This document shows positions 10,624 to 45,608 of a stretch of DNA of 64,000 nt, piece after piece (within the stretch, counting starts at the first letter, position 1; the number at the start of each line of letters is the position of its first letter). Below the pieces are notes generated by a model. That model saw only the letters and a program-made list of their open reading frames with translations, was not told where the DNA came from and ran no database searches. The stretch is from Astropecten irregularis (lineage: Eukaryota; Echinodermata; Asteroidea; Paxillosida; Astropectinidae): NCBI GenBank assembly GCA_963971285.1, contig OZ020252.1, positions 14,979,662-15,043,661 on the forward strand, written 5' to 3'. Both the position numbers and the translations under genes were made by a program.

Positions 10624-10870
10624 GCTGAAGACCAAACTGAAAGAGGGTCCCATTGATGGCCCCACGGGAGTGAAGACCTACCGGGAGGACATACGGCAGA
10701 TCCTCTTCAGGGCCTTCAACAGCCCCATCAGCGACTTGGAGATCGGGGTGGTGGTGCGGAAGGCCTTTCCCAAGCACAGTCGTAAGGGCAAGTACTACTT
10801 TGGCATTGGAGCCCGCAACGCCAAGTATGCCGATGAGGCTGGCCGGACGATCGCAACAGACAACCCCAAG
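10624..10870 (+). CDS. First visible exon: basic domain, possibly RFX-like winged helix
   Basis: The acceptor CTGCAG precedes 10624 and the donor GTAAGG follows 10870. The exon encodes 82 full codons. It has the pattern YREDIRQIL ... VVVRKAFP ... KGKYYFGI. The order hydrophobic helix, then (I/V)R-x2-FP, then a basic turn, then KYYFGI resembles the recognition helix and wing of RFX-type domains, where the end usually reads SKYHYxGI. The match is by eye and short. A different small winged helix, or a family of its own, is equally possible. Confidence 0.4.
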
Positions 10871-13800
10871 GTAAGGGCTTGAAGGGGGTATATTAAACAG
10901 GGCACACGAGTGCACGCGAACGTTGTCGTTGGGACACAATTTTTCAGCATTTCGGGACTAATTTCGGCACTAACCTCCATTGGGTTTAGCCTGGAAAATG
11001 TGAGACTAGGCCCACTATTATGCTCCGCAGGGGTTCTTTTACAACTTAGCGCCACCTACTTTTATCATTTGGACACAACTGACCTACATTGTGCATGTAC
11101 ATGTATGTCTCTGATCCCACAAACACAGACAAGCCTGTGGAACATATGGGAATGGGAAGTGTTAATAGAGCATGACCAAATTACGTAATGCATTTCCAAC
11201 CGGCAACCCTTCTAGCCCTGCTGTGGCCCCCAGTCCCGGAGTTACCGATGTGAGGTGATTTTGGAGTTTGTGGTCGGGTATTCGAACCCCTGCTGTGGGC
11301 ATCAATTCACCACTACCCAGTCCCTCGTCTGAACGTACCCCCACTTGTTTGTGATGCGGCAGTCTGGTGCACATTGGTTGTGAATCATGAATCTCTTGAT
11401 TGTTGATCACCTGTCAGATTCATTTTTCCTCTTTAGTTACATTGTTTATTGTACATGAAAGAAATGTGAGAGTTCTTTTTATTTCATGTCACATTGTGTC
11501 CCATTTCCCCATAGGGATATTTTTCATACACTGCACTGTCTTTAGTCCATTCAGTGTGTGGTGTAATAGATACGTGGGCTTATAGCATATAATGTTATGT
11601 AGGCCTACATGTACGTGAAGCTGCCATAAGCTGCGGATTTTTGAGAATATTATGTCCCTGTTTGGGCAGGAAACCTTATTGACGTCATCCACTGCCATCT
11701 TATTTCTGCAGCACACGCAATAATGAAACAATGGACAAGCCACAATTTACTGCGTAGTTGCGTCCAAATGGCGAGGACCATTTTAACATCTTCTTGTGAT
11801 TCCTTGCCGCGAACACGTACCCAAAAGACGTCAGGGGCCTATTAAGGTTTATCGTTTGCGTGTGTGATATATAAATATTTTACCGTTCAGTTATTGTTCA
11901 ATATGGAAACGGATGTAGTGAATGACACAAAATGAAAGTTATTTTCAGGCTCGGTAATGTACATACTGTATTATTGGTACAGTGTACAACGTACTGCAGC
12001 ATGTATAATGTGTATTATCACAGTACAATGAGCAGCGTCTATATCGCTGTGGCAGTGTGTGGTAGTATTCTGGGTGGGGGGCGAGGGTAACTAGGTTAAG
12101 ATGTCATGCCATGCAAAAACCATGTCTGAGTGGCATACAGCAATTACCAAGTCCATGTGCAGTACATGTACATGTAGGCCTACTGTACATATCAAGTTAG
12201 CGGAGGTACAGTTTCATGAAACGCCCACGTGTACATTATGCGTACAGTGTGGGTAGAGCCTATGTAGTCCATGGCCTGTACAATGTCAATGGCATTATTG
12301 TACCAAGGTCAATATCACCTGTCCATTGCAGAATCGTAGGCACATTTACATGTACATGTACACGCATCCCGATGTACATGTAGGCCTACATACATGTAGT
12401 GTAGTGTAGTGTATGTGGTTGTGGTATAGTGTATGATTGCTTTTAGCCGCTTTTGTCAATCACAATGCCAGTCACGGCAGAATTGGGTCTGTAGTGGAGG
12501 ACGCAGAATGTAAATACCGACTGTCTGTATAGTGCCATGTTTCTAGGCCATGATGTCTGTGTAGAGTCATGGGGAATCTTCTGAATGGCGGCGGCTGTAA
12601 AGTCTGCTTTTAATTTAGATTGCTTTGAGAGCCTAGCATCGCCACCGTAAGTAAAGTGTGTTCAAGGTGACCATCGTGTGTAGGCCTACAATGGGCCTTT
12701 TGCAAACCTCGGCTCCGGCTCCGGCTTCGGCTTCGGCTCCATTTCGTGACTCCATTTTTGAATAACAGGTATCAAAATAGAGGCTTTTGGTTACGGATTG
12801 GAAGTACTGTAGATACTCTATTTTGAACAGGAAAACAGAGATTCAGCTTCAATGAAAAGCCACAACCTACATTTTCAGCATATGGATGACAGCGCCGGAG
12901 CCGAGGTTTGGAAAAGGGCCCATGTATGTCTTCGGCCTCTAGCTCTTCTCTTTTGCTTCTGTAAAGGATAAAGATCTTGGATTAGCACCAAGATGCATGC
13001 ATGCATCTATGTACATGTATGAACACTGTACATTTACAGTGCCGTGGTTACACACATAAATTTACAGAAATGCATTAATCTTGACCCAATTTCATGGAAT
13101 CTGTTTCGGCCTATTTTTGTTCTTACGGGCACTGCTACATGTGTAATCTATTTCATGGAATCTGTAAGCAAGAATTTCGGTGCTGAATCTGTTAGCGAAG
13201 AATTTCTAGGCTAGCCTTGATTTTGTTTTCTTCTGCTAACGCACTGTTATATATGTGCATTCTGCAGAAAATCCTTGCTTACATTAGCGTACTGAGAAAC
13301 GAAATACGCTAACCACAACTTAAAAGCAAAAAAAGTTCTGCTATCGTAAGCGAAGAATCTTTGCTTAAAAACGGTTACGGATTCCATGAATTTGGGCCGT
13401 GAACTGTGCAATGCTTAATTATGTTCATAATTATGTGTGCCACTTCACTTGCATGACTTGCGCGTCACCCAGATGGTCTCTTTGTAAATTGTAAATATAG
13501 CCCAGACCACATGGTGCCCTTGGTGGGGTTAAGAAATATTGGCCAAGCGTGGACCTAATTCAACCCTCTTTGGTATGTGTGAACAGAACACCCCGCTGGA
13601 ACCACAAAGTCCAAGTGCTTATAAATGTTAAACAAACCAACCAAAAGGAAAACAACCACAGAAAGGGTTCCTTCGAGAGTGTTAGTTACATCGTCCATTG
13701 TGGGATTGGGCATTGAATTGATGCCAAGGACGAACAAATAATTTTTTTTTTGTACATTTTTTTTTTCTGTTTTTTTTTTTTTTCTTCAATTTTTATTGAA

Positions 13801-16800
13801 CTTTCTGTGAATGTTTAATATCGAACGCAGCATTCTCCTGCTGGCAGATGGCTGCTACGGCAATTTCATTCATTTTCTCGAAATTGTTGTTGGTCCAGAA
13901 AATCTTAATAAAAAGCTGTGAGAACGGCTGGTCGTAAAGCCATTGGTTGATTTTTTTTTTTTTTTTATTATTAGATGAAATGATTTTGTCGAAGACTTTT
14001 GACATCTTGCCACCTAACCATTGTTTAATTGCATTTTGTTTTATTGTCCAAGTTAAACCATTTTATTTGTGCAAGGAAAACAAAATCACTAGACAGCGGG
14101 ACTAGTGCAGTACAAACTTTGCTAGACCGACACTGAAATCACTAGACTCGGTCCAAGGTCTAGTGGATATTTCGAGCACTGTAAGTAATATGAATGGATG
14201 AACGATGCGTTGTACTCAAAATAGACTTAAATTTAAATGTTCACAACAGACCAGTCCAACATGTAACCATCACTTCAGTAACCACTTGGTTATATACTGT
14301 ACATGTATTAAGAAAGGAAGCTTACATAGACACCATGTATAGGTGTATTTCTTTTTCTAGCATGTCTAGAAAAGAAATTGGTGAGAAGTAGTCTGGAGGT
14401 TTCGGCCAGTGTACTCTGGCCGTCCTCATGAGAAAGTGTGACTTGGTAATAGACCATTTTTTTTCCACGAAAATCTGCACCAAAAAGGGCCATTTTCCAT
14501 AAAAAAAATCAAAAACAAGCTTCTTGTTTCCATATAATTTTGAAATTGCCTTTTTGAAAAAGGAGGATGGTACTACAAGTATTTTTAAATATACATGTAT
14601 GTACATACAGTAGTTGTCGACTGTAGAGTTACAGTGAACACCCAGCAGAAGTCACTATCCTGTCTGCCATGCAGTCGCTTGGTATTCAGGTGTGAAATTG
14701 GCTTTTTAAAGATGGATTATGATGAGCATTTTGTTGTTGCTGAAAAGAGAGATTTGTTTTGCTATCTAATTTCAGGGTCTGATTCACGTCTCTGCTTTTA
14801 ACGACATGTATGATACATCATGTACGTACACATTTATGTATGTTTAAAAGGTAATATCATACTTTGGTTTTTGTCAAAGAAATACAGATTAGTGGGCAAA
14901 AATATCAAGGAACATACAGTCAGAGTCATCTGTGAAAATGTCAGTCCCATACGGTGCCCACTTTTTGAGAAAACAGTGAAAAACGGCCACAGTATTTCTT
15001 AAGTCTTTTCTCTTTCATTTTTGATCTTTTAAAAGATCAACAAGATTTTTGGTCGTTGTTTGACTAATTTCTGGATAAATACACCATTTCAGGCGGAAAC
15101 ATTTTAACGGTAGGTTTCTACCAGCACCATCTTCAGTCCCTGAAAATTATACGTAAATCTGTGAACATTTCTGTTTTGGTTTCTTAGTATGATACTACCT
15201 TTAATACATGTATGTGTTGATATTCATTGATTTCATGTGTTAACAAATGTATGCCATTGCCTATGTACATGTATGTACATTGCATGTCATGAAAAATGTA
15301 CTGCAAGCCCTGTAGAATCACCCATTTGCTGCTGTTCAAGCTAAAATACAGATGAAAACTATACACATGACACGTATGAAGATTGAAGATAAACGTCTTA
15401 TCATCTGGGGCTGATCTTGTGGATTTGTGTGGGTGTATGTCCAGGGCCAAGGAGCCCAGGACATTTTACACAAATCAATACATAAAATATGCAGCCTGCC
15501 ACATTGAATTGAACCGGAGTACCCTACAGCTATTATGTGAACATTGAGCTTGTACATGTACGCGTATGTACATCTAGGTTAGTTGTACCTCTTGCCTCAA
15601 ACTGTTTCTTTTGTGGTAATACCACATTTTTATCTTCTCCCTTGATTTGTTTCCTATGGCTATACATGTATGTAATGTAGATTTTGCTCTTCTCTGTACA
15701 TGTTAATAAATATACATTATTCAATTGCTCTTGTTCTTCAAAGCATTATAAGAAAATGTACCAGAGAGGTACATATTACAAGTATAGAGGGTGTGCAGTC
15801 ACGTGATCAGGACGCCATTTTGGACGGCAACTCTGTACACATGTATAATGCACGTATTTGTACGTACAGTGTATGTAACCCACGTGTTCGTGTAGCTTGC
15901 AAATCAACCGGACGCGTACGAAGATGCAGAAGTGCGTGCATATAATGATGCTGTCTGGTACGTACGCGTGCATACGCGACATGCGTGCATACGCGTGCCG
16001 TCCAAAATGGCCGATAAGCTGTCAAGTGACGTCACGTGCACGCTCTCTATATAGGCCTACATGTACATCTATGATGTATTAGAATGTTCTCTTTGCTTTT
16101 TGAATGACTGTTATTGATCTGAGCCTGCATGGCAGCCGGCAGGAAACCCATTGATGTTGTGGCGTGTTCCGATTGGAGTCGGGGCTGTTCCTTTTTGCTT
16201 GGAAATTGGCCTTCGGTTGAAAATAGCCCATTTAATGCTGTATAGCCATCTGCTGTTTCGTGACAACAGAGCCATAAACTGGGCCCATTTCCAGGTCCTA
16301 ATGGACACATGTAGGTTGATATATCCTTCATCAGAGCCTCATCAAGATCAAGAATCTAGTTTGTGAGAATCTTGGAAGGAAGGAAAGAGGTAATAAAGTG
16401 TGGTTGTGATGTAGGCCCTCACTCCTCCTCCCTTTCCCATCCTTTACTTGTGTTTACTGTGAATGCATTGAACATAAACATGGGAAGACCCATCCAAGTA
16501 CATATATAATAAAGGTGCATGATTGGCAAAGGTCACAGAACAGCACTCACACGTCAACTGTCTTATCCAACATGTACATGAAATAACAAGCCTGTGAAAA
16601 ATTGAGCTCAATCGGACATCCGAGTCCAGAGAAAATAGCAAAAATCCGATTCAATTTTCTTATGAATACACTGACTGTACAGTGTACATGTGTGAAACAT
16701 AAAGATGTTTTGATCTTGCCAAGATCAAAAATATTTTTGTTGTATGGTTTCGCTCTTTCTGGATAAATACACCATTTCGGGCAGAAATATTTTAAAGGTA

Positions 16801-19800
16801 TGTTTTTACCCGCATCTTCATCTTCATTCCCTGTGAACATTTCTGTTTTGGGTTATGTTACCAATCCTGTACTATAGTGTGTACCTTTAAAGGTTATTTG
16901 CATCAGAAGTGTGTCCAGTGTCCACACAGGGAACATTTCATGTTTTGATTTATTCCGTGAGGTAGCAGCGGGGCCTTCCGGAACCGCTCTTCCTCTGCTC
17001 CTCATAATGATGATGTTGACGGCGGGGCCTCCTGACGTCGGTGATGTTGTTGCCTTGGTGAAGGCTTCTCGCATTGAGGCTGGCCTGCTTTCTTGCTTGC
17101 TTGCGGTGGTGGTGGTGTTGTCCTCCTGCCAGTAATCAGGGGTATTATACACGTCGTATCGTGCCCTCCCACACACTCTCACTCATTGCAAACAGATAGA
17201 GAGAAAGGGTGAAGAATGAAGATGGGGATTATTGGGAGTGTCGTCAGCTACATCCTTGGGGTCGTGGCCTGTACACGCTGTTGGCTACATTGGAGTGAGC
17301 TGTTGCACAGAGTGTGTGTCAACATGAACATGATGCGATCTCAATCCCCTCCTTCTACTACTTCTCCACCTCCTTTCGCAGTTCACAGAAAGTATGAACT
17401 AGGGTTGAACATGAATGTTGGAACAATTATGTGGACAATCGAAGTGCTCAGAAAATTTCCGGTCTTTGAAGTTTCAAGTTTGATTTGAGGCTTGGCATGT
17501 TGAGAATTGGTAAATGGATCGGTTTGAGGAAACACCTTGAAACTTAAGAATCATTCGTACTTTCGCACTTTTTATTTCGTTCACACTTCTCGTAATAAAA
17601 AGTCATCAACCCTGAGATTTGTCCAGTGTGAAAAGCCTTTAATGTGAGCATATAGGATTTGCAAAGATGTGCATTTTGGCTGAATTTGGTACTTAAACAG
17701 AAGTGAAGGTCTTAAACTTCCTTACACTGACGTTGTTTCGTGTACCTTTTTACGCTTTGTTCATCTGGATAGCAGAAATACGGCCGAAACAATCTTGCCC
17801 CCCTCCGAATCCTTCACGGTTACACCACGCTTTCGAAATGCAACTAAATCGTTCGGACGAACAATCTATTTAAAAGACACTCAATCTTGATTTCCTTGAA
17901 AAACCCATTATCTGATGAACCAAGATTTCCCGTGGTGACTGTTTGCACTGTTTACGAACTGTTGAGTCCGTTTTCTGTCTCAAACTCAATACGTTTGTTT
18001 TTGAGGCCTTGCAAATCCTGTACGCTGCCTTTCAGAGTGACTAATTTCTTGGTTGTTGGTTTCTTGCAGTCATTGATGACCATACAGTCGGATGGTGGGA
18101 GCAGAGAGACATCCCCAGTGATGCTGAAGCCAGTCAAGAAACGTGCCATCCAGGCCTGGAAGGAGACGCAGAATGGACAAGCGTTTGCCGCTGACCAGGT
18201 GAGACTCAGTTCAACTGTTTATGCTTTGCCTCGGAATTAGTCCGACGGAGACAATGTAAGACCTTTTCACACTACATGTATCTCCTTTTCGATCGGTGTT
18301 GAAACCAGCCCGAATCCGCCCCGGTACAGCCCGGCAAGTTTTTTAACAAGATCGAAGAGACACAAGGTTCACATTACATTATTGGTGAACCGGCTCATTA
18401 TGAGGACACAGATCACAGCGAAAAATGCAGTTTGGAACTGGGTTGAGATTTTCAACCCCGGTTCCTACCAGGGCTCATTTCGATCCGGGCTGAAAAAGTG
18501 GGTATGGGCAATTATTTATGCGTATCGGCCCCGATATGCAAGTTTGTACATGGCGACAACCGTGGGACACTTTCAGCATGTAATACTATGTGTGATAGAT
18601 GTTGAATGATTTGCCTTGCTTCCAGGGCCCAATATCATGGAATCCTTTACCGTAAGCATAAAAATTTTGCTTACGATAGCAGACGTTTTTTTGCTTAAGG
18701 TTAGCGTATTTCAAGGGAGAGTTTTCTTTCTCGCTAAGCAAAGACTTTCTGCAGAATGCAAATGACAGTGCGTTAGCAGAAAATAATAATGGTTAGCCTA
18801 GAGATTCTTCGCTTTAATACCAAAAGTCTTGCTTATAAACAGATTCCATTACATGTAAATAGATTTCACGAGTACCAGTGCCCGTAAGCACAAAAATAGG
18901 CCGTTACGGATTCAATGAAATTGGGCCCTGTTATTAAGTGCATACATGTACATTTTTGGCCAATAACAAGCAGAAAGCAGTGTGATGGACACCCTGAGGT
19001 GTCCTCTTTGCTAAGATTGAGTCTACGATCAGCTGGTAAGGTGACTGCAGTCACCCGGCTATACAGAGCATCATCAACTGCATCAGATTGTTGCCTGCCA
19101 GCCCATTTACAAATTGGGGTCGCGATCGATGGACGTTGAAGTCCGTAGCCACTCGGACTTTAAGTAGCATTATGGCCGGCGGGGCTAAGCGCTGGACGGT
19201 CGTTGAGGATGAACCCAAGAGTGGACCTGGTCTAGTTTACATACTTGACACATGCTTGAGAGCCTGAATATGCAAGGGATGTGACCTTCGTGTTAAGAGG
19301 ACAAGATAAGAATGACTAACGTTCCACAACCAGGGGTCGATTTCACGAAGCCCTGCGATCGATCGTAACTCTAGTTATGAAGGATAACCCATCGCAATCA
19401 GGGGCCGATTTCATAAAGCTCTGTGACGCGTCGCAAATCGAGTTGCGACGCGTCCTAGCTGCGACGCATCGCATCTATGCAGTGAGTCCATAGAGAATGG
19501 ATGCGTCTTAACTCTGCGACGCGTCGTAAGTTTTATGAAATCGACCCCGGGACCTATTCCTCGTAGGGCTCCTATGCATCCAAAGTGCTACGATTGATAG
19601 TACATGTAAGTTACGAAGAGTTTGGTGAAATCGACCCATGGCATTTGAACACTTGTACAAGTATAATAGCTCACAGTGCTACATCACAGTGGGGCACCAA
19701 TCCAAGTGCTTACGTGAATGTAAATGTGCAGTTATGTCAGAACCATAGAAAGAGTGCTTGCGCATATATGACAGACCTATGATGTCACAGCCCTCTATCA

Positions 19801-22800
19801 TCTCGTAAATTGGGACATTACGTTGCCAAGGAGATTGGATTTTATAACCCTAAAAATCATCAGAGCCATAGATGTGTCCCATGTGAGAATTGTAGTCCAC
19901 TGAACCCTCATGTCCTACAGTAATACATCGTCCATCATTCCGCATGTCAAATCCCACCTCCCAGAAGATCCAACATGAAAGTGGGTATTGAAGCCATGCA
20001 TCACGTACAGTGTACATGACGTACATAACCCATTCAAATCATATGGAAGATTCGGTTTGAAGTTGCACACTTTGTAGATATGCCCCATTTAAGATTGAAA
20101 TGCACACTATCCCCAGCTATATGACAGAAATGTGTTATCACATCGTGTATAATTTGTAGGTTGAGAAATTGATTCAATCAGTTGAACCTGTTTTTTTTTT
20201 CCCTAAGGCCAAAAAAAAAAAATTGTTGTGTTGCCCTCAATTGGAAAAATAAAAATGTTGGGTCGGTCGGTCGATTTTTTTTTTTTTTTGGGTTTTCTTT
20301 TTTTGGCCGACTTTCAAACATTTAAGAATAAATACTGTGTCATTCATATACATGGTCACAAGGGCTTATAAATCATTGGTTTTGGGTCGTTTTGAGGAGA
20401 CACGCTTTTTTTTACTGCTAAATCTTACATTTTCTGTCAAAAATTTTCGGTTTTTATACTTTAGGACTCGGAGAAAAAAAATTTAAAAAAAAATCCTGAC
20501 CCAAAGTTTTGGCATTTTACGGTCGGTCGCGGAGGGCAACACAACAATTTTTTTTTTTTGGCCTAATCAAGATTTTCATCATGGAAAAAAAACCCACCCC
20601 GCTTTATTCACAATTGTGATATCCACAGTTCTGTTGGTTTTTTTTTTTTTTAATGTCATCTCTGCGTTATTTGTCTGTGAGACTTACTTTGGAAGAGACT
20701 TTGTCAATATTTGCAGTGTAAATTCCAATCTTACTGGAAGTTTGTTTTTTTCGATGGATGATAACGGGGACGAGTGGATATATCCTGGTTGGCTGCAGGT
20801 TTTGTTGCGTACGTATGTGCCGGTGGTGTCACTGAAAGGGCAAATGTAACTGGTGGTCCAGTTGGTGCAACTCTGACTTTTCACTAACTATCGGACTGAA
20901 GAGCCTTTTCACACTACTTTTCACACTACTCTCTGGGTCGTTCACGGGTCTTATCTGTGTAAAAGTAACTGACCTGTTCACACTGCAAGATTCTAACACG
21001 CCGTCGGCCTGTGTAAAGCGCTTCACCTGGTGTTGAAACTAACCCTGCTCAGGAGGTGGGTTGAGAGAGGTCGACTCGTGTTGAAAATTTCAATGTGTGT
21101 TGAGAGTGATGGTTTGAATGTCTTGAAGTGCATCTTGTGTTGTATTGTAGTGTGAACACTGAGAATGATTGACCCATGTTTAAATTTGGAAAAGTTTACT
21201 GGAGGTGGACCCATGTCAATTTTGTCATGTGTAAACAATCCCTGCAGTTGATCATTCATGTATCATTTTCTGATGGAAAGGTCATTTATGATAATCCCAA
21301 ATCTGGAAACTTTGTACAGTATTCACATTTGTCACTCTGGAGCTAAGGAAACCGTTCACTGCAATACAAGGCTCGAAATATCCACTATACCGTGGACCGA
21401 GTCTTGTGATTTCAGTGTCGGTCTAGTAAAGTGTGTACTGCACTAGTCCGGCTGTCTAGTGATTTTGTTTTCCTTGCACAAATAAAATGGTTCCTAAATT
21501 GATGATTTTTGACACAATATTGCATTTTACAGTTTTCCTATGTTGTACATGAATGCCATAGGCCTAGTAAAAAAAAGGTTCAGGTCTAGTAAAATGCCAA
21601 AGTTAGTCAGTTACTAGACCTGCTGTCCAGTGCTTATTTCACAAAATTTGAGCCCTGTAAAGGCTGTAATACACATACTGGTACAATATACATGTACACT
21701 TCACAGTGTTCACCTTAATATTATGTGAAAAAAATGTGTGTGTGTGTGTTACACAGTCACCCCACATATCCCCACATACATGACATATGTGATGGTACCA
21801 GTACACTGTACAAGTAATGTAGTTACTATTTGAGTAAGGATTTGACCTTGTCCAACATTTTTCAATAACTGTACACCCTGCTGATACACATCCTGTGGAT
21901 GACATTTAAACATTTTAGTCAAATATACTGGTACATGTAACAATTGCTCTGACAAGAAAAGTCTGTCAAACGATCATTCTTTTACCCCTCTATCTCTTTA
22001 ATATTGACTATCATCAGCAAATCGTACTTGTATTTTTTTGGGGTGTCTCGATGAAAACTTATTTTTATAAAATTTTGTTTGAGAAGTATTTTTAAGTTTA
22101 ATATCGCTCCCCCCCCCTTCACTTTCTCCCTCCCCTAAACAAAGTACAATGTAAACAAACAAACAAACAAACACAAAAGCAGGCTCAATACAAGTATTAA
22201 ACTGCTGCAAACTGCGCCCCAGCCAAAATAATGACCTAAAATTTATAAAATGCATGTTCTTGTCCTCTCGTTCATTTAGCCTTCGATGAAGATCCAGCTA
22301 GGATCGAAACGCGTCAGGCCCTCCTAACTCCAAGCACAAAAACTGACTGTTAAAAACAAATTCATAAGCGTCTCCTAAAATTCTCCGTTTGCACAAGAAG
22401 TACATGTATGTATGTAATTTATAGTCATAATATTATTATGGAACAAAGCCAGCAAGGTGGTAGACAGGACTGTGTCATAGTTTGTTCAGTACCGGTTCAT
22501 ATCCTTTCTACCGGGGGTTCGGTGTTATCTTGGCCGAACAAAGGGTGCCCCTGCACTGTCAACATAACTTTTGGACCTGTTACAGTGCTTGTGACATTTA
22601 AAAAAAAAAAAATTTCGGCCCTGTTTATTTATTTTTTTTCGTCTTTTTTTCCCCGGCTTTTTGTTTCTTTCTTTCTTTTGCCCCATTGGCCCGCTTTTTC
22701 TTGAATGCACTGTACCCCTCCCTCTTGTTACGCCCCATACAGCGTCCTGTGAACCATTGTGTGAGTATACTGGCGTGACGGGCAGTCAGAAGCCCACGGA

Positions 22801-25800
22801 ACTCCCAGCTCCGACAGGGAACTGGAAAATCTAATTTCTTTCTTTTTTTTGGTTGGTTGAACTTTAATACACTCCCTGGTAGTGTATGCGTTGTCTTGAC
22901 TGTGGAGGCTGGTATGCATGATACTGTACATGTAAATGATAGAGAGATATTGTTGAGGTTACCGGTGGTTGTCGTTGTCTGTGGGTTCCGTCTCAACGAG
23001 TCGCTCGGCATGGAGGGATTGTTAAGGATTGCCCGGATGCACCAGGTGTGTATATGATAGTCGTGAGCCTTCTCAGCCTTAAACAGTTTGAAGAGGAATG
23101 GATTGCAAGTTTTGCTACCAAATTGTGTCTGTGATCCTTAAAAATACCAGTGTGTTTGTTTTGTATTCACGGCAGACATATTTTTTTTTTGTGGTTTCGT
23201 TTTTTGAAAATATTAACTTAACCTTGAGTGTACACATAACATGCAGTGTGGTACATGTAATACATGTACACGATATGCATGTAGCTACTAACAGCATGAT
23301 GCATTAAATTGTACAGAATGTTATTTGCTTCATACGGGCACTGTAGCCTGTACATGTATAACAGCGAGTACGAAAGTCTGCAGTAGACTTCATGTTCTTA
23401 TTAGAACAATAGGCTTACATGTAATAGCAGGCCTCACTTGTTTTTCAATCGAAAGGAACTCATATCATATTTTTCCTTTAAGTGGAAAAGAAAAAAAGGC
23501 TGCGTTTTGTAGCCGTCTTTAGCTTTAGTATACAAGCCCTTTTCCCCCACTTTTGTTGAAACACTTTTTGTTCTGATCCTCTCATTCATTTATTTGTTTG
23601 ATCTTAACTTTCGTGTTCTCGTCCTCTTGTCATTTACCCTTTGCGAAAGATCCTTCTAGGATCAAAACGTCAGACCCTCCTGATTCCTAGTTCAGAATTA
23701 GATAAATTAAGTGCAACCATGTCAAAGTGCTGTTTTTTTATATTTTTATATTATATGGTCAAGCATAGTTTGCAGTTTCGAATACTGTACACTTTAATGC
23801 CAACATTTTCGGTGAAAAACAAAAACAAACCAGCAATGTTAAACCCTCTGAATGACTGGCCCCATTACATGATCATGCCAGCTGCCGAGGTTGCTTAGAG
23901 ATTACTCAGAGTATTGCATTGATGGCATTATTTATTCCTGAAAACTATATTTGGAAAGTCTTGCAATCATGCAGTACTACGAAAAGTTCCAGTGGAACTT
24001 CAAAAGTGAAAACCGTTTCTAACTGTGATGATCACCCAGCTTTGCAATGTTCATGTGTCTCAGAAATAAATGCTGTATACCATTCAAGAAGTTGTGGATA
24101 ACTTCTGGATGTTTAAGGCACTATCATCATCTTTAACCAAGGGAGACCTTACAGAAAAGTTTGACCTCTTTTCACCATGCTGATGGCGATTATAAGTTCA
24201 TATCAAATGAAAATAACCAAGGGGTCGATTTCACGAAGCTCTACAATCGATCGTAACTCGAGTTACGAAGGATAACCCATTGTATCTTACATAGGGCTGC
24301 AATGCATCATAAGTCCTAAGATTGATCGAAAGTTACGGTGAGTTTGGTGAAATCAACCCCAGGATTGTATCATTTTACCAATTGATGCTGGATCGGTGGG
24401 AGAATAAGGATTCGATGTGACTCATTTGCCCAGATGAGTAACAATGCTCGACACTGTGTAGAATGAAGGGCCTTTTGATTGTTAACATCCATGTGCGAAT
24501 GCGTCCCCCGCTGTTGATGGAAGCAAGAGACTTGTGCAGAATCTTCCCCGACAGTTCATGCACTGTCCATGAATTCCACGTCCTTCAATGAAGTTCACTA
24601 TGTTAATCCCATAATTGGACTTCCACAAGGTACCTGGTCTGCCAGCTTGAACCAGCCTACTTCTGCAATCCCTTTCTTTGAGTTTTGAGAAAGAAAGAGG
24701 CTTTAACACTCTGGCGAAAGATTTATTGATGCTGAAAGTATCGTTTTCTATTTTTATTCCCTCTCTTTTAAAGGTACATGTACTATCATACTTTGGTAGC
24801 ATACCAAAACAGAAATCATTACATATTTACAATGTACCTATAAATTACAGGGTATAAAGAAAAGAGCAAAACCAATTGACCCAAAACAGTTCTGATCTTC
24901 GGAAGATCAAAAATGTCCTGTGAAAAGATTTATAAATACCATGGCCGTTTTTCACTGTTTTCTCAAAAAGTGGGCACTTTATGGGATTGGCAATTTCACA
25001 GATGACTGTTACTGTATCTTTCTTGATGTTTGTGTCCATGACTCTGCATTTCTTTGACAAAAACCAAAGTATGATATTACCTTTAAGCCTCAATGAACCA
25101 AACATTATAGTGAATTTTTCTTTAATTGAAGTTTTAGTGCTTCAACCAATTTTAGAATAAATTTTTGTTTGATGACATTTTCGCTGGTTTATGAATATTC
25201 TTGTGGACTGCCTGTAGATACAGGCTTTGGGCTTACAAGTATGTGAAGATGAACTCTAAATATGCACTCATTAAACTTTAAAAGAGGATAATAAGTTTAT
25301 GTGCAGTATGTACATGTAGGTATCATATACAGTGTACAACAGGTACACCATCAGTCCATCACACAATTGTTTACTAGTGTGATGGAATTATTCATATGCG
25401 CTGTCCATTCCTACTCAGAACCAATGTTTGCTTGTGCTGATCTTAGCCACATTCATGACATTAGATCCTTATGACACATTCTTCATCCAGACCCCTTGAT
25501 TGAAGACTAAATTCTATCTTTTCTCTCCAAATGTCACTCCAGATGATCCGCGATGCAAACAGCCAGCCATCAACTCCCGTTGTGTCCGTGGCTCCGAACG
25601 ATGGCCTGGTGCGCCCCCAGTGGCGACCGATGCTCATGCTACCTCAGCACCTTCACATGGCACCGCGGGGCATGCTCTTCCCTGCCGGCCGCCTTCCCCC
25701 GGGTGCCCTGCCCATGCCTCATCCCATCATGCCCACCAGCGAGCCCAACAACAACATCAACCGGCACCTGGCCCCTTCCTCCCGGTCGCGCAAGCGCTCC

Positions 25801-28800
25801 ACTGTGGACATGGGGACGCTGCAGAAGCTGAGCTACGGGGCGGACCACCGGGGGATCGGCAAGAAGCCGCGCAAGGAAGGTGCTATGATCGAGCTCTCCT
25901 CGTCTCACAACGGACTTGTGGCCGAACGGAACAGTCTGGCCGGCGTGCATATAGAGCCCATCATTCTGGATTTTGAAGTGTCACTGCCAAAGCTACCTCT
26001 GTCGTCATCAGCATCAGCATCTTCAGGCAGTGCTAGTGCGCTATTAGGTCGAGGCACTGCGAGTGAAATGCAAGCATCTAAGGAACAGAGTCAGTCAGGA
26101 GAGATGCCCAAGACCCCCAAGGATAAGATGCCAGTCAGCCCGCGTCCTGGAGAGGCTGCTGAAAGCGCTCACTCCAAACTGGTAAGATAGAAGACCAGGG
26201 CTGGATGTTACAAATTGCCTTTTCACACTGCAGTATCCAAGCCTGCTTATAGGGTTGGTGGGTTTTTTAGAATCCAGTATCGCAAGGTCTGATGTAATTA
26301 ACCCTATTAAACGCTCTGCATCTTTAGTACCAAACAAGACAAGTGCTGTGTACCACACAATACCATTCTCCACAGGTGGAACTGGATCATGAACCACGCA
26401 TTAACATGAAAAACACACTGTTGTGTATTGTGGTATTCAGGATACCACAGGAAAACTGTATGCAGAGATGGGTTGGGGTTTATAGTCATTATTGTTATGA
26501 TGGGCAAAAGTGATCATTTCAATCGTTCCATCATCCTCCCCCAAAAAAAGAAAATTACAAATGTAATTTGGGTGTTACCACAAACCATTTAGAGAACAAT
26601 TGCAGCCTGGATGCAAACAGAACATTGCAAACGGAAAATCTTAAAATAAGTGTGATTTGAGCAAAAGTTAAAATTTTTCAGAGGTTCAAATGATAATATG
26701 TTTGGCTGCAGTTGTTGAGCATTCTTCTTCCAGAAAAAAGTACAGCCACCAGAATCCAACATCATTATGGTGCTTTATATTAATCCATTTTTTTTTCTCG
26801 TTCCATTTTCGTTGTTTAATTCAGGTAAACAAGAGTGAAAGCAGTTCTGAAAGTAAGAAGGCCACTGGAGAGCAGAGTTCCAAGCCAGCTGATAGTACAT
26901 CATGTGATCCATTTAAAAAGCCGGACATTGAGGACTATAGGAGTAACGTTTCCGCCGGCCGTTGCTTACTATGTCAGAACCCCATTCCTCCAAATGGTAA
27001 CAGCGATGCATCCCCACAGGACAGTGCATCATTGTCCATTTGTATTAAGTGTAAGAAAGTCGCGATGTCGGGTGCCAAATCGTTCAAGCCCGTTCCAAAG
27101 TTTCCGTACGCCTGCAACCCAAAGCTGGCACCCAAAACGGTCTATGTTCCTCCGCCGCGGAGGCTTTACAAGCCCAAACCGCCACTGCCGAAAGGGCCGC
27201 AGAAGGCAGTGGGAATCAGACTATATCCACCCAGGTCGCGCTCCACGTCGTCATGCTCTTCAAGATCGTCTGTGTCGGCCTGTGCGTCTCCTCGGTCACC
27301 GGGTCAGTTGTCGGTCCCGGGATCGCCAGCTCCTAGTCTACCTCTCGGAAGTCCTCAGCCCTGTTCGCCGGGCCTCATTATGCACAGTGCACCCCCAAGT
27401 CCAAGGCATGCATCCGATGCCGGAGTGAAGATGCAGAGTCTCTCCTTGCCACCCAGTCCGTCCATGATCTCGCAGCATCCTTCGTCACCTCTGGCTGCAG
27501 ATGCAAGAGAGCTGGAAGCGTCAAGGAGACACATGCCCACTGCATCCCTCCAAGTACCGAGTCCCTCTTACAGTTCAAGTCCTTCAACTCCGGGTGGGAG
27601 GGATTCCGTCTCCTCGGAGAGATTGGCCCTTCCTCCGGGGAGAGAGCAGGATGATGCAACCATAAAGGCGCTGCTTCAACTTGGCAGAGGGGTGGAGAGA
27701 ACTCCCTCAGAATATAGTGCGGACAGCACGCCTGTTCCTTCCCCAATCAACAGAACGCCCGAAAGAGACACTGTACTACAACCTTATCCCACCAGCAGTG
27801 TTTCTGTACCTCACTTACCCATTAGTTTGCCTCTCCTAGCGGGACAGGTTCCAATGAGCATGATCCCGTCAAATGCGGGTGTGGTGATGGGACCACAGGG
27901 CCAGCTTTTACCCATCATCCCGAGCTGGCCGCCGATGGGTGTGCCAACAAGCGAGGCCATGAACATGATGTCAGCGGCGGGCTTTCCACCCATGCCCTTA
28001 TTAATCCAGCCGCCCTCAACGAGAGAGACCTCCAGCCCAACGGTTGCTAGTCCTGCTCCCGTCACACCCAGTGTCAAGTCTCGCAATCCTCCTGATCCAG
28101 CCAAGACCAGCGCTGGGCCCACCACGGACAGTTATTCATACGATATCTCGCAAATGAAGTACCGTAAGGCTTTGAAGAGATGCCGGGCATCTGAAGGGAT
28201 GACGGACTCATCAACAGACTGTGTTAGTTACAGAGCGGACTCCACGCAGGAGGATAAATCCAAGTCCAAACAGCCAATTGTTATAGTGGGTACAAACTGT
28301 GCTGGATCCTCATCGATCAAACTCAACAAGGACAAAGAGGCTCCCTACCACCAGGAGGAGGTGACGCGGGAAGCCCCCGAGATGTACGGGAAGCCGTTCA
28401 GTGCTTTCTGCTGCCGATGCTCAGGACGGGAGATAATGCTGCTCCAGTGCACCGACTGCGACTTTGTCTGCAACAACAAGTTTGGGATGGAGTTGCACAT
28501 AGCCGCTCAGCGCCATGCCGAGAGTCGCAGCAAGACAAGCATCCCAGAGGTCCTGCCCGCCCACGCCAACGACACTGAGGACAGGGATGACATCGCTTCT
28601 CAGTCATCGGTGGAAACGCAGTCGGCAGACACGGATACAGATGCGGCATCACCACCTCCCAAGAGGGTACTAAAAGAGGTAAGATAAAAACCCTCATTTA
28701 AGGGGCATGCTGTGAAGGTTGAGTCGCTGGGCATTGTGTTTTTGTGTATTTCTCTTAGTATCCTACTGTATGCATATAGAGGACATGATGTAACAAGCTT

Positions 28801-30934
28801 CATATCCTCTATAAGAAAACACCTTGTGTGACCATTTTGATTTGATGTTGTGTCCGCTTCTTGTCTATAGAAATATTGGAACTAAGTTGAAAAAAAAAGA
28901 CATTCAAAAAAGATGACCTTGAACAATTTGTTTAATACCACTTTGTTTCATGTATTATCTAATTTTACATGTTCATAATTATTGCCATCTAACCTATGTA
29001 CATGCTGAAACCTTACAGTATAAGATTATATTTAGGGATTGTTAACACCATTTAAACACTCATGGGTTAACACTCCATGTACATGTATGTTACCTTTTAT
29101 GACCTCAGTGGTAACATGTCACATTTCTCTTGAACAGGTCCCATGGACACGGGTGCCGGAGACCGCAGGCCAGCTTGCTCTTCCACCTTGGCACGAGGGC
29201 CTGCATTTCATGCCTGTTCAGAGTGTCTCCCAAGAGCCCTTCCCATCCCGTACAAATCAAAACAGCTTTGTCGCGACCTCAACGTTTGGTAGTTTAGGGA
29301 TGATGACAGAAAAAACAGTACCATTAGACCTTAGCGGTCGGACGTTCCCACCTTCCCCGTACCTCCAAGGAATGCCGCCATCGTCCTTTCTGTGGAAGGA
29401 ACAACGGAGGGAAGGCTCCTTGGAGGAATCAAGTCCACTAGATCTATCTGGGCATGGCAGACCTCCCGTCATGTCCACAGGAGGTAGTGGCATGAATCCA
29501 TTTCTGTCGAGCAGTAAGCCAGGAACTCAGGGCAGCTTTACATCTAAAAGGACTCCTTTGGATGTTGCATCCAGCCAGCAACCTTTGGCCGCTCCTAACC
29601 TTGTCTTAACGACCTCAAATAGCAAGAAGACACTTCAGCCTGCAGTACCACAAACGTTCTTCGATCTGATGCGACTCCATGACATGCCCATCCCTTCAAC
29701 AGCTGCAACATCTGTCAATATTTCCAAGAGCTTGCAATCTTCTGCGAAGATTCCAAGTGCGCGTCCACTGACGGGTTCTTCACTGTCGGTCTCCAAGGCT
29801 CACCTGGAGAGCCCCTCCAGTCCAAAATCTTATCCCCTCATTCCAAGTATTGTCTTGTCTAGTAACACATCAACAGCCCCGAGTGTTCCTAAACCTTACC
29901 CCTATCCAACTACTGAGCTTACGCGTCCACCTCCTGGCGTAATCACTCCAATTTTATCACAACAGCAGTCTCTGAATTACCAAGGAGGGATAATATCTAT
30001 CAGGCCTACCATTCCAGTACCTCAAATGCTTGTTTCATCCAAAACTGTGCCTGTGCTTTCTCCCTTCCCTCTTCCGGCCTCAGTTTCCGCATCAATGTCT
30101 GAGACAAGAACTTCTCCTTGCAGGGATTTCTCCGCCATGGAATCATTAAATGTCAGTGTTGGATCACCGTATCTACAAACAGGATCTCCAAACAGAGGTT
30201 CTCCAAGTGTTCGTGATTCACCCCAAGCAAGACAGAGATATGGTGCTCTTGATTCCCCGAGGGAACATACAGGTCGGAAGGACCCCTCACCTCAGCGGTC
30301 TCCCCAACCGGTTCACATCAAGATCGAACCGCCAGACACTCCCCATGAGGTGGAGCATTCTGGGTCGGGCAACCCAAAGCAGAGGTGGCTTGACGAAACG
30401 GAGAAACAGGCCCGTCTGCTGGAGGCTAGCCTGATAGGGGAACCCACCCGTCCCTCACGCAGTCGAGGATTCCTTGGCGGCAGCGATGGGATCGGCAGGA
30501 CATCGTGGGCAATCTCCTCGAGGAGCCTACAGATCAGAGACAACACTTACGTCAACACAACAGCGAGTCTTCCCAGAGCGCTGCACACGGGTCCAGAGGG
30601 GCCGCTGTCTAGGAATAGCCCAGATCGTGACTCCTACAATGGTGCTAGACTATCCTCAGGGGCAATGCATAGAACTAATGCCTCATCAAGGGATTCCTCT
30701 CAGACATCCAGTCCAACGGCTGGAACCTACCCAGAAAGGTCTGGGGAAATGTCCAGGGACCCATCATTTCATTCAGATAGTTTGAACAGTAGTTCACCCA
30801 ATACATCCAGGAAGGATAGCCTTTCGGATAGACGGTCTAGGGAAGACCAAGGCGTCGAAGCAACACAACTAGACACAGAGGCTGGCAACCCAACTGCTTT
30901 GCACATCAAACTAGAGAAGCCAACCAGAGATTAG
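10624..30934 (+). CDS. Unnamed nuclear regulatory protein: basic winged-helix-like domain, C2H2 finger, CtBP and SUMO motifs (5' partial)
   Basis: Five exons join in frame: 10624-10870, 18070-18198, 25543-26181, 26825-28678 and 29138-30934 (stop TAG). All have GT-AG borders, and every junction after the first exon is phase 0. The visible part is 1554 residues. The first exon begins with one base of a split codon, so at least one upstream exon is missing. Numbered from 10625, the order is: basic domain (about 1-82), short linker (83-125), Pro/Ser-rich tracts, CxxC-x22-CxxC knuckle (about 385-414), long SP-rich region, C2H2 finger (about 880-902), two PLDLS motifs (1018-1022, 1056-1060), and IKIE and IKLE SUMO-type sites near the C terminus. 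PLDLS is the known CtBP-binding signature, so a nuclear co-repressor or DNA-binding role is inferred. I do not recognise the family. The gene model is much firmer than the function. Confidence 0.85.
12693..12920. repeat. MITE family C (GGCTCCGG ends)
   Basis: The left GGGCCTTTTGCAAACCTCGG and right CCGAGGTTTGGAAAAGGGCC are inverted repeats. The interior CGTGACTCCATTTTTGAATA is shared with 38329-38565. Confidence 0.75.
13083..13399. repeat. MITE family F (CCCAATTTCATGGAATC ends)
   Basis: The left CCCAATTTCATGGAATC pairs with the right GATTCCATGAATTTGGGCC. The interior is built of GCTTAC/GTAAGC segments. A second copy is at 18625-18928. Confidence 0.65.
14053..14181 (-). repeat. Partial CAGGGCTCGAA element
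   Basis: This is a reverse-orientation fragment of the element complete at 54117-54398. It retains TTTGTGCAAGGAAAACAAAA, the CTAGAC-rich block and GGATATTTCGAGC. Confidence 0.65.
14847..15202 (+). repeat. MITE family A, full-length copy
   Basis: It starts AAAGGTAATATCATACTTTG and ends AGTATGATACTACCTTT, with a central GATCTTTTAAAAGATC hairpin. The copies at 34822-35184, 50793-51150 and 24770-25084 (reverse) have the same order. Confidence 0.8.
15784..16052. repeat. MITE with ATAGAGGGTGTGCAGTCACGTGA ends
   Basis: The left AGAG(G)GTGTGCAGTCACGTGA pairs with the right TGACGTCACGTGCACGCTCTCT. CCATTTTGGACGGCA pairs with TGCCGTCCAAAATGG. The element is about 270 bp, with a middle rich in CGTACG and GCATACGCG. 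Confidence 0.7.
16511..16888. repeat. MITE family B, full-length copy
   Basis: AAAGGTGCATGATTGG at the left and CCAATCCTGTAC..GTACCTTT at the right. The interior follows the order seen at 2550 and 4340. Confidence 0.7.
17638..18032 (-). repeat. MITE with GCAAATCCTGTACGCTGCCTTT end, beside an exon
   Basis: This is a reverse copy of the element at 55741-56098. Shared blocks include GATTTGCAAAGATGTGCATTT, CATCTGGATAGCAGAAATACG and AACCAAGATTTCCC. Its end lies 37 bp before the exon at 18070. Confidence 0.75.
18070..18198 (+). CDS. Second visible exon of the unnamed regulatory protein
   Basis: The exon has 43 codons, phase 0 at both ends, between acceptor TTCTTGCAG and donor GTGAGA. It encodes a Ser/Thr-rich start and a basic segment, PVKKRAIQAWKE. 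The upstream intron end carries a copy of a transposon (17638-18032) that stops 37 bp before this exon. An open frame that begins at 17887 reads from the transposon into the exon and is not a real N terminus. Confidence 0.75.
18625..18928. repeat. MITE family F copy
   Basis: It has GGGCCCAATATCATGGAATC at the left and GATTCAATGAAATTGGGCCC at the right. The interior has CTTACGATAGCAGA and GCCCGTAAGCACAAAAATAG, the reverse of the copy at 13083. Confidence 0.7.
19333..19638. repeat. MITE family D copy split by a nested MITE
   Basis: The outer ends are GGGGTCGATTTCACGAAG and GGTGAAATCGACCC. After GGATAACCCATCGCAATCA it is interrupted by 19401-19548 and resumes at about 19553 with CCTATTCCTCGTAGGGCTCC, which is contiguous in the copies at 24221 and 52510. 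Confidence 0.75.
19401..19548. repeat. Inner MITE of the nested pair
   Basis: The left GGGGCCGATTTCATAAA pairs with the right TTTATGAAATCGACCCC. The core carries GCGACGCGTC palindromes. No exact flanking duplication is visible. Confidence 0.7.
20204..20566. repeat. MITE family H (TTGTTGTGTTGCCCTC ends)
   Basis: GGCC-poly(A)-TTGTTGTGTTGCCCTC at the left and GAGGGCAACACAACAA-poly(T)-GGCC at the right. GGTCGGTCGGTCGA pairs loosely with ACGGTCGGTCGC. A second copy is at 45062-45372, in the BCDIN3D intron. Confidence 0.75.
20901..21250. repeat. Dispersed element with CCTTTTCACACTAC end
   Basis: It shares TTCACACTRC, GATGGTTTGAATG-like and TTGACCCATGTT..AAATTT blocks with 42659-42902. The left end also resembles 18258-18275. 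Confidence 0.5.
21367..21657 (+). repeat. CAGGGCTCGAA element, second full copy
   Basis: Left CAAGGCTCGAAATATCCACT, right AATTTGAGCCCTG. The interior matches 54117-54398 closely, including GATTTCAGTGTCGGTCTAGT. Confidence 0.75.
24221..24360. repeat. MITE family D, intact copy
   Basis: GGGGTCGATTTCACGAAGCT at the left and TTGGTGAAATCAACCCC at the right, 140 bp, with core CTCGAGTTACGAAGGATAAC. Confidence 0.75.
24770..25084 (-). repeat. MITE family A, reverse copy
   Basis: Starts AAAGGTAC..ACTATCATACTTTGGTA and ends ACCAAAGTATGATATTACCTTT. It contains TTTCTCAAAAAGTGGGCAC, the reverse of the block in the plus copies. Confidence 0.75.
26963..27052 (+). other. CxxC-x22-CxxC zinc-knuckle candidate
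   Basis: In the exon 26825-28678, the codons at 26963-26974 give CLLC and those at 27041-27052 give CIKC, separated by 22 mainly polar residues. Paired CxxC motifs at this spacing commonly bind one zinc ion. A stretch of conserved-looking basic and aromatic residues follows (SFKPVPKFPYACNPK). I cannot assign it to a named zinc-finger class. Confidence 0.5.
28448..28516 (+). other. C2H2 zinc finger
   Basis: The residues follow C-x2-C-x12-H-x5-H exactly: CTDC, then 12 residues including F-x6-G-M-E-L, then H-x5-H. A CCRC cluster sits just upstream (28409-28420) and may add a second metal site. Only one finger is present, so it is more likely a protein-contact or accessory DNA-contact finger than a polydactyl DNA reader. 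Confidence 0.75.
29321..29449 (+). other. Two PLDLS CtBP-binding motifs
   Basis: The codons at 29321-29335 and 29435-29449 both encode PLDLS, followed by GR and GH, 33 residues apart. PxDLS is the established motif for docking in the CtBP cleft, and paired copies are common in CtBP-dependent repressors. Function here is inferred from the motif alone. Confidence 0.7.
30317..30916 (+). other. Two SUMO-acceptor consensus sites
   Basis: IKIE is encoded at 30317-30328 (followed by PPDTP) and IKLE at 30905-30916, six codons before the stop. Both fit the hydrophobic-K-x-E consensus. SUMO sites often occur with CtBP motifs in repressors. Modification is inferred, not shown. Confidence 0.55.
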
Positions 30935-35184: not shown

Positions 35185-35453
35185 AAAGAAAGAGAAAAAA
35201 GGGGGGAAAGGAAAAAAAAACATTGCATTGGTTGTGTGTGCACATTGTGGGTCATTTTAGAAAGAAGCAGCTGCATTTTTTTTAGTTTTGTAACCACAAG
35301 ATTCCAGTCGCACTCAGTGGAAAAGTCTTGGGTTTATGACAATTTTAATAAAAAACAACAACAAACAAACAACAACAACAATGATCCAGTCTGATCTGAT
35401 GCTACTGTCAGTTGTGATTTGTTCATTATTTGATTTCATCATGGGGAAAAAAA

Positions 35454-35790
35454 GTTTTGAATTTTTCAGCTCAATTGATCATTGGAAACAGTAGAAAACA
35501 GTGAAAAACCTGTTGCAATTGTAATATGGGGGAAAAAAAAAAGTTTTGTATTTTTCAGCTCAATTGATCATTGGAAATAGTAGAAAACAGCGAAAAACCT
35601 GTTGCATTTGTTATATGCGAAATTGTGAAGCAATTCGGTCGTTTGGTTGACTCATTTCTGGATAATTAGCAGCATTTCAGGTGGAACAATTGTAATGGTA
35701 TGTTTATACCAGGTCCATCTTTATACCCTTATTAGTTATACATAAATCTATGAACATTTTGGTTTGTTACCAATTCTGTACCGTACCTTT
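35454..35790. repeat. Family A/B-related MITE with internal tandem duplication
   Basis: A unit of about 84 bp containing TTTTTCAGCTCAATTGATCA is repeated twice at the left. The right end is CCAATTCTGTACCGTACCTTT. The same left block occurs once at about 1530. Confidence 0.6.
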
Positions 35791-44171: not shown

Positions 44172-45608
44172 CTAATTCACATCCTGAACATTCTTGAATA
44201 AAAGTAGTTTCCTATTCCAATGCGTTTCACCAAACACCTCAACAAGTTCCATGTGGCACTCAGACATCAGATAACTCTTGATTTCCTCGTCAACCTTCTC
44301 CCTCATCTTGAGTTCCTCAAAATGCCAGGAATCGGTAGCCACGCCTACCCTCTTCATTCTCCGAATGGCGGACTTGTAGCACTTCCACGGCTGGGGCTCC
44401 ACCAGCAAGAATCTGGACACCATCGAGGCTTCCTTGAGAAATCGGCACAGGCCTGCGTCGCCGTGATGAAGGTGTATCCACATCGTTATTGAGAAACAGC
44501 AGACCATGTCAAATTGGCGGCTTAATACGTCTTCAGAGTCGTTGGACAGGAAACCCGTCAGGACAGAGTTCCTGGAAGTATTGCACATGAAGTCAAGAGT
44601 CTGAAAGGTGATGTTTCCTGGATAGGGATTTGCCTCATTGGCTCGTGTTATGAGTGCGTCGTCAATGTCACAACCCAGAATGTGTACAAATTCACAGGTA
44701 GTCTTTAAATCTCTGCTGATGTTCAAAGTACCAGTAGTCATTTGAGTTCGCGAGGTATCACATGATGGAGATTCATCCATGCTGTTTCCCTTGGGTCTAT
44801 TTCCACATTGAAATTCTGTCAGGTGTTTGTACAGGGCCACTGTAAGATCCTGAAAAGAAAATTAAAAAGAAATGAAATCATCAGTGGGAATCGTTGATTA
44901 GTCAGTTGATATTTTAGAAACAGCGAATTTACAGCATTTGTTGTAGTTGTGATGATCGTAACCCTTGGTCTGACATAGGGACCCATATGAGACAAAGGGT
45001 TACGATCATCGCAACTACAATAATCGTAGCAAATGTCAAACAATGGGTTACGATTAGTCCGAAAAAAAAAATTGTTGCCCTCAGCGACCGACCGTAAAAT
45101 GCCAAAACTTTGGGTCCGGATTTTTTTTTTTTTAAGTATAAAAACTCAACATTTTTGACAGAAAATGTAAGATTTAGCAGTAAAAAATCGTGTCTCCTCA
45201 AAACGACCCAAGACCGTTGATTTATAAGCCCTGGTGACCATACATGTACATCCTGTATTTATTCAAATGTTTGAAAGTCGGCCAAAAAATAAATTAATAA
45301 TAAATCGACCGACCGACCCAAAATTTTAATTTTTCCAATTGAGGGCAACACAACAATTTTTGGGGGGGCCTATGGCAACATGCAAGCAATGCAATGACGA
45401 GCGATGGTCAAATATTTACCCCAGCATTGCACCCAATATCAAGGACCTTAACATCCCTTTCTCTCATCGGGTCGCTGATAACATTCAAAAGATCCCTTGG
45501 AAGAAAGTTCATTCGCTTTTCCGGTGGATTAAAGGAGTAATAATTGATGAAATTTCCATACAGTGCCGCTCCAGGATGGAAACAACCTGAATCAATGGGC
45601 GCAGCCAT
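44172..45608 (-). CDS. BCDIN3D: RNA 5'-monophosphate methyltransferase BCDIN3D
   Basis: There are two exons on the minus strand: 45608-45420 (63 codons from ATG) and 44849-44172 (225 codons plus stop). The joined protein has 288 residues, close to my recollection of about 292 for human BCDIN3D. Human BCDIN3D O-methylates the 5'-monophosphate of RNAs, best known for tRNA-His and reported for pre-miRNAs, in the cytoplasm. The SAM-binding motif I, LDIGCNAG followed by DLTVALYKHL, is cut exactly by the phase-0 intron. Further family signatures are GCDIDDALITRA, LDFM, FSITMWIHLHHGD and FLLVEPQPWKCYKSA, with LLLF near the end. The start is supported by the family N terminus FxPGAALYGNFINYYSFNPP. 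The intron carries two palindromic elements (44937-45024, 45062-45372). It shares its 5' flank with RAB3GAP1. Confidence 0.95.
44937..45024. repeat. Hairpin element in the BCDIN3D intron
   Basis: GTTGTAGTTGTGATGATCGT pairs with ACGATCATCGCAACTACAA across a short loop. It continues with a partial third arm to about 45055. Confidence 0.6.
45062..45372 (-). repeat. MITE family H, reverse copy in the BCDIN3D intron
   Basis: The right end GAGGGCAACACAACAA and the interior GACAGAAAATGTAAGATTTA match the reverse complement of 20204-20566. Confidence 0.75.

Follow-up and report, generated by a model that had tools for sequence, protein, structure and literature searches.

An uncharacterised regulator of Astropecten irregularis with two PLDLS motifs and a candidate RFX-like winged helix

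Exons of the gene and motifs of its product

A stretch of 64,000 nucleotides from the genome of Astropecten irregularis (C16:14979662-15043661, where C16 stands for contig OZ020252.1), referred to here as the window, carries on its forward strand five exons of a real gene, that of an uncharacterised regulator whose product contains two PLDLS motifs and would recruit CtBP to repress transcription. These exons are numbered 2 to 6 (exons 1 to 5 of the original prediction), and residue numbers refer to an extended model of 1593 residues. Exon 2 (10624-10870, residues 39-121) is an open frame lying between an acceptor gcag/G and a donor AAG/gtaagg, and exon 3 (18070-18198, residues 122-164) ends at a donor CAG/gtgaga. 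Exon 4 (25543-26181, residues 165-377) is a phase-0 open frame with splice signals, exon 5 (26825-28678, residues 378-995) comprises 618 open codons, likewise with splice signals, and exon 6 (29138-30934, residues 996-1593) contains the stop, a TAG. The four introns that separate them are all in phase 0, every acceptor ends in AG, and the donors of exons 2 to 5 read, in order, GTAAGG, GTGAGA, GTAAGA and GTAAGA. Joined, the five exons amount to 1554 complete codons and a split one, which bears out the five phase-consistent exons and the 1554 residues first proposed. At their own base composition, the chance that the two large open frames (672 and 633 codons with the stop counted) stay open is about 8e-13 for the first and 1.5e-12 for the second. 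The acceptor of exon 3 is uncertain: by coding score, the form starting at 18070 ranks seventh among the 25 candidates listed, and the alternative 18088-18198, which uses the same donor, ranks third. Position 18070 was chosen for its better pyrimidine tract and its agreement with the earlier count of 1554 and, being selected partly to reproduce that count, does not represent independent evidence for it.

Exon 2 opens at 10624 with the third base of a codon that is split, so that the protein starts farther upstream and the gene model, right as to its five exons, was incomplete, with a first coding exon that likely lies outside the window. The 110 kb upstream were scanned for exons ending two bases into a codon; among the 26 best candidates listed, fifth place by coding score goes to an exon with an ATG (C16:14951050-14951165), which lies upstream of the window by 28.5 kb. 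Its coding part is MAAAQQAFIKLSRSRVSQSGDTHNSLDGAVEEIEKKAL plus TG, its start context AAAATGG and its donor GTAAGT; it occurs once in the genome, completes the split codon of exon 2 as a tryptophan (W39) and brings the protein to the 1593 residues of the extended model. It is likely, but not proven, to be the first coding exon. About 6 kb from it, in head-to-head orientation, there is a large open stretch that looks coding and contains a C2H2-like motif (L011:4064-5284; C16:14943725-14944945, reverse strand). In searches of the surveyed genome (475.7 Mb in 168 contigs), exons 2, 4, 5 and 6, as well as the zinc-finger region described below, each matched nothing but themselves, and the gene therefore appears to be single copy as judged from exons 2, 4, 5 and 6.

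The expectations for short motifs were obtained from shuffles of the protein, 2000 per motif, or 1000 in the case of KKPRK, PLD[LV][SA] and S/T-P. The two PLDLS motifs pointed out originally, PLDLSGR (29321-29335, residue 1057) and PLDLSGH (29435-29449, residue 1095), are above chance, as 0.009 are expected and none of the 2000 shuffles contained two. The looser PxDLS pattern, with the same two occurrences against 0.096 expected, reached two in 9 of the 2000 shuffles. A PLDVA at 29555-29569 (residue 1135) is possibly a decayed third copy, the successive spacings being 38 and 40 residues; the pattern PLD[LV][SA] occurs three times against 0.011 expected (0/1000 shuffles), although it was broadened after PLDVA had been noticed. 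Serine and proline make up 27% of the protein, which is large and probably mostly disordered, with a long body rich in both residues, and the composition of the serine/proline-rich tail suggests that the two PLDLS motifs within it are accessible.

The host genome also provides a possible partner. A human CtBP1 query detects a CtBP gene on contig C18 in five pieces that are 64-90% identical to it. One of its exons ends ...STNEIHEK at a GT donor and the next opens VLNEAV after CAG, so that HEKV would form on splicing; with HEK and V kept on adjoining exons, the organism appears to possess a CtBP with the groove that binds the motif. According to PMC11095456, it is the HEKV region of CTBP2 that takes up the PLDLS of EVI1, a single motif essential for binding. 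A study on CtBP evolution reports that echinoderms, like other non-vertebrate deuterostomes, have just one CtBP gene (PMC9907507). Eight further matches to the CtBP1 query, located on other contigs, are 30-44% identical and resemble other dehydrogenases. The dehydrogenase matches at C32:16007-16759 and C34:81438-82190, on two small contigs and in long open frames, have identical score, identity and query range, and there are like matches in long open frames on C47, C57, C95, C149 and C152; all of these are possibly more bacterial or duplicated contigs.

Two zinc-binding patterns precede the PLDLS motifs. The CxxC-x22-CxxC knuckle (26963-27052, residues 424-453) is found in the translation exactly as first described; it has no Pfam match, its region gives a weak match to a phage DksA-like zinc finger (expectation value, E, 0.046), and CxxC pairs number four in the protein against 0.22 expected (0/2000 shuffles). 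At 28409-28516 (residues 906-941), a CxxC-x9-CxxC runs into a finger with the spacing C-x2-C-x12-H-x5-H, a C2H2-like pattern found once against 0.003 expected and in 6 of the 2000 shuffles. The one C2H2 finger proposed at the outset thus stands as a spacing pattern but is degenerate, its best Pfam scores being 17.7 bits for zf-C2H2_16 (cut-off 27) and 16.3 for zf-C2H2_3rep (cut-off 30.8). The usual F and L positions of such a finger are occupied here by C and M. With the extra CxxC nine residues before it, this may not be a plain C2H2 finger but a mixed zinc site.

The remaining motifs are less distinctive. A basic stretch RKRS...KKPRK at 25789-25875, seen in the translation, resembles a nuclear-localisation signal and probably acts as one, with KKPRK occurring once against 0.001 expected (1/1000 shuffles). 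The two suggested SUMO-type sites, IKIE (30317-30328) and, at the C terminus, IKLE (30905-30916), are present and enriched in the strict form IK[IL]E (2 against 0.016 expected; 0/2000 shuffles), but sites of the psi-K-x-[DE] class are no more frequent than chance would give, as [VILMF]K.[DE] occurs twice against 1.44 expected and 872 of the 2000 shuffles do as well, which leaves the claim weak. There is no LxxLL (0.55 expected), and S/T-P sites show no enrichment (44 against 40.2 expected; 269/1000 shuffles).

The N-terminal domain and its likeness to RFX

Profile libraries give little help in classifying the protein. A scan of the exons with NCBIfam, a library built for bacteria and archaea, gave no match, and one with PHROGs nothing above its cut-off. 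Searches of PDB sequences with exon 2, exons 1 and 2 together, and exon 5 returned weak matches only (best E 0.0019), for the most part with repeat proteins of designed origin. Two viral contig collections and a prokaryote one, which are uninformative on animals, yielded 15, 16 and 93 pattern-matching stretches and no confirmed relative. No title on this gene appears among the literature matches listed; no vertebrate orthologue is known to us, and none is proposed. That the protein fits no nameable family, as had been stated, holds for Pfam, in which no family reaches the cut-off with any exon, but its small basic domain may be related to the RFX5-type winged helix, for which the tests had mixed outcomes.

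This candidate divergent RFX-like winged helix occupies residues 40-103 (10625-10816, forward strand) and is preceded by W39, the tryptophan that exon 1 completes. Like the RFX-type winged helices (PF02257) of RFX5/RFX7 and ARID2, it shows a W-[LI]-[RK]-x-x-L-x-E start, a core P-[IL]-S-x-x-x-[IF]-G-x-[IV]-[IV]-R-x-x-F-P and an end KY-x(2,3)-GI. Identities amount to 20/62 with RFX5 and 16/60 with RFX1, both in gapped alignments, and to 15/58 with the RFX5/7-like domain of the host and 11/57 with ARID2, ungapped. Aligned end to end with an RFX profile, the domain scores 6.85, a value reached by none of 300 and none of 2000 shuffles (maximum 6.70) and by none of 960 windows from 35 real proteins (maximum 5.69); on the same scale, 105 and 126 are obtained for two true RFX domains, each of which the profile includes. 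In pairwise comparison with the human RFX5 DNA-binding domain it scores 51, which 0/5000 shuffles and 0/1955 real-protein windows reach. Since the limits of the domain were set after the likeness had been noticed and four targets were tried, the figures from such comparisons are flattering.

The 35 control proteins come from 60 kb of C131 (L035-L040; 102890 bp), a bacterial-looking contig with many long frames and a COX1-type oxidase that is open without TGA. A COX1 fragment with seven TGA was seen in a large contig (L030; C25:9951047-9952018) and is probably a mitochondrial insertion. The mitochondrial contig itself (16335 bp) carries COX1, ND4L and COX2 one after another, has ND1 and ND2 on the other strand, and reads lysine under table 5 at a COX1 position that is usually asparagine; with the genes identified by eye, this combination is that of an echinoderm with an asteroid-like inversion.

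A series of results weighs against a relationship with RFX. The pairwise score with the host RFX5/7-like domain is reached by 5/5000 shuffles and 3/1955 windows, that with ARID2 by 42/5000 and 25/1955, and that with RFX1 by 297/5000 and 83/1955. If the tryptophan from exon 1 is left out, 7 of 5000 shuffles reach the RFX5 score, and 154, 662 and 1334 of 5000 those for the host RFX5/7-like, ARID2 and RFX1 domains. The hhalign score against four RFX domains assembled from host loci, 15.4, is exceeded by 2/200 shuffles; the 2.4 bits given by a hidden Markov model of eight domains are equalled or surpassed by 22/2000, and the local profile score is reached by 17/300. The failure of every exon to reach a Pfam cut-off counts in the same direction. 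A genome search with PF02257, run at E up to 10 with speed filters on, gave twelve places, eight of them over the cut-off, and the N-terminal domain was not among them; among the host RFX loci, the evidence suggests an RFX1-3-like (L016) and an ARID2-like (L023) one. Structure prediction, proposed originally as a check, was carried out with AlphaFold2 without an alignment and was uninformative: exon 2 (predicted local distance difference test score, pLDDT, 46.7) was modelled as one helix followed by three strands, with strands where RFX has helix 3, while two strands and a helix were modelled at the finger of exon 5, with a mean pLDDT of 36.7, too low to count. Neither model is good enough for a search by fold.

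The wing is also reduced. Wing W1, which contacts DNA, has the block RRLG-[GT]-RG-x-SKY in the RFX domains seen. Unlike RFX5, the N-terminal domain is eight residues shorter after FP, RRLGGRG included, and SRKGKYYFGI is all that remains of the block, which makes DNA binding of the RFX type doubtful. RFX factors are defined by the conserved RFX DNA-binding domain (PMC2533330); with neither a PF02257 match nor the wing block, the protein is not classed here among them. On balance, the sequence comparisons put the chance that the domain is an RFX-related winged helix slightly above even.

Neighbouring features in the window

On the reverse strand, positions 44172-44861 encode a Bin3-type methyltransferase (Pfam Bin3, E 1.7e-22), which we take to be BCDIN3D-like. 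Farther along, on the forward strand, there are RAB3GAP1-like exons at 57502-58113 and 61649-62092 (Rab3-GAP_cat_C, E 3.9e-15; the first piece just E 0.019). The first of them is directly preceded by an array of the 6-base unit GATTCT (57236-57494), and a tRNA-like Rfam match at 61318-61390 on the forward strand (35.9 bits, above the gathering score) adjoins a RAB3GAP1-like exon, ARAGORN reporting no tRNA. Strand skews within the window are strongest in the 2-kb bin that holds a long CT-rich imperfect tandem array (49448-49825), and tandem repeats with units of 89 and 119 bases are found at 35447-35617 and 55000-55279, respectively.

A possible CtBP-recruiting repressor

Taken together, the features of the gene and its product lend about even odds to the proposal of a nuclear transcriptional repressor ~1593 residues long, which would recruit CtBP and bear at its N terminus a divergent RFX5-like winged helix. 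The CtBP component of this proposal is well founded in sequence, and the likeness to RFX, added by the present analysis, is of moderate strength. The original interpretation is partly supported, in that a CtBP-dependent regulator fits the PLDLS pair, the zinc-binding patterns, the serine/proline-rich body, the basic stretch and the host CtBP gene.

Other explanations have to be considered, most directly for the N-terminal domain, which in a CtBP-recruiting regulator might have an unrelated fold or be a protein-protein module, with DNA targeting left to partners or to the zinc-binding patterns. The insignificant local profile tests, the lack of any Pfam match, PF02257 included, and the helix and three strands of the low-confidence single-sequence model are in line with this possibility; the full-length spacing and the end residues, on the contrary, match RFX5 beyond the controls tried, and we regard an unrelated fold as rather unlikely. 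It is improbable that the PLDLS motifs arose by chance or serve another purpose in what would be a general chromatin scaffold or activator. Short motifs arise more easily in a protein so rich in serine and proline, and the loose PxDLS pair did recur in a few shuffles, but the exact pair, 38 residues apart, never did.

It might also be thought that two or more genes or transcripts have been joined, for example by adding exons 1 to 3 to later exons that stand apart. The introns of 39 kb between exons 1 and 2, 7.2 kb between exons 2 and 3 and 7.3 kb between exons 3 and 4, together with the modest coding ranks of exons 1 and 3, would allow such an error. However, the four window introns are all in phase 0 with good sites, and exon 1 completes a tryptophan at the very position where RFX domains carry one, so that a composite seems quite improbable.

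If the protein is indeed a CtBP-recruiting repressor, it would enter the nucleus by means of its basic stretch, and the candidate N-terminal winged helix, together with the zinc-binding patterns, would target it either to DNA or to some chromatin complex. The PLDLS cluster, at residues ~1057-1135, could then dock into the N-terminal groove of CtBP, which in turn would bring histone-modifying enzymes and shut target genes. Such a protein would resemble several known regulators in part. We know of no PLDLS motifs or zinc fingers in RFX5/7. ZNF217, FOG and other zinc-finger repressors bearing PxDLS recruit CtBP, and they and EVI1/MECOM combine, as here, a PLDLS motif with C2H2-type fingers. EVI1 recruits CtBP through PLDLS (PMC11095456). 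Unlike these proteins, the Astropecten product has a single degenerate finger, no finger arrays and, in the Pfam scan, no PR/SET domain. ZNF608/ZNF609 (brakeless) and other large co-regulators with a single finger are likewise large disordered proteins with one C2H2 finger, and no sequence similarity between them and this protein is known to us. As for RFX-type domains outside the family, that of ARID2 is 29% identical to RFX1 and ARID2 is not counted as an RFX factor, according to PMC2873420.

A bolder proposal, which we hold only tentatively and consider unlikely, is that the protein represents an undescribed class of regulator. Its winged helix, a degenerate one of RFX5/7 type devoid of the DNA-contacting wing, would serve as the targeting arm of a repressor and be joined to zinc knuckles and a CtBP-docking tail. 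The analysis also gives a candidate N-terminal fold for a protein that is blank in Pfam. If the RFX likeness is genuine, the small set of RFX-like domains outside RFX factors, for which PMC2873420 names ARID2 and a choanoflagellate gene, would gain a member. If the repressor reading is true, a CtBP partner of unusual make-up would exist in an animal group used for the study of developmental gene networks and regeneration.

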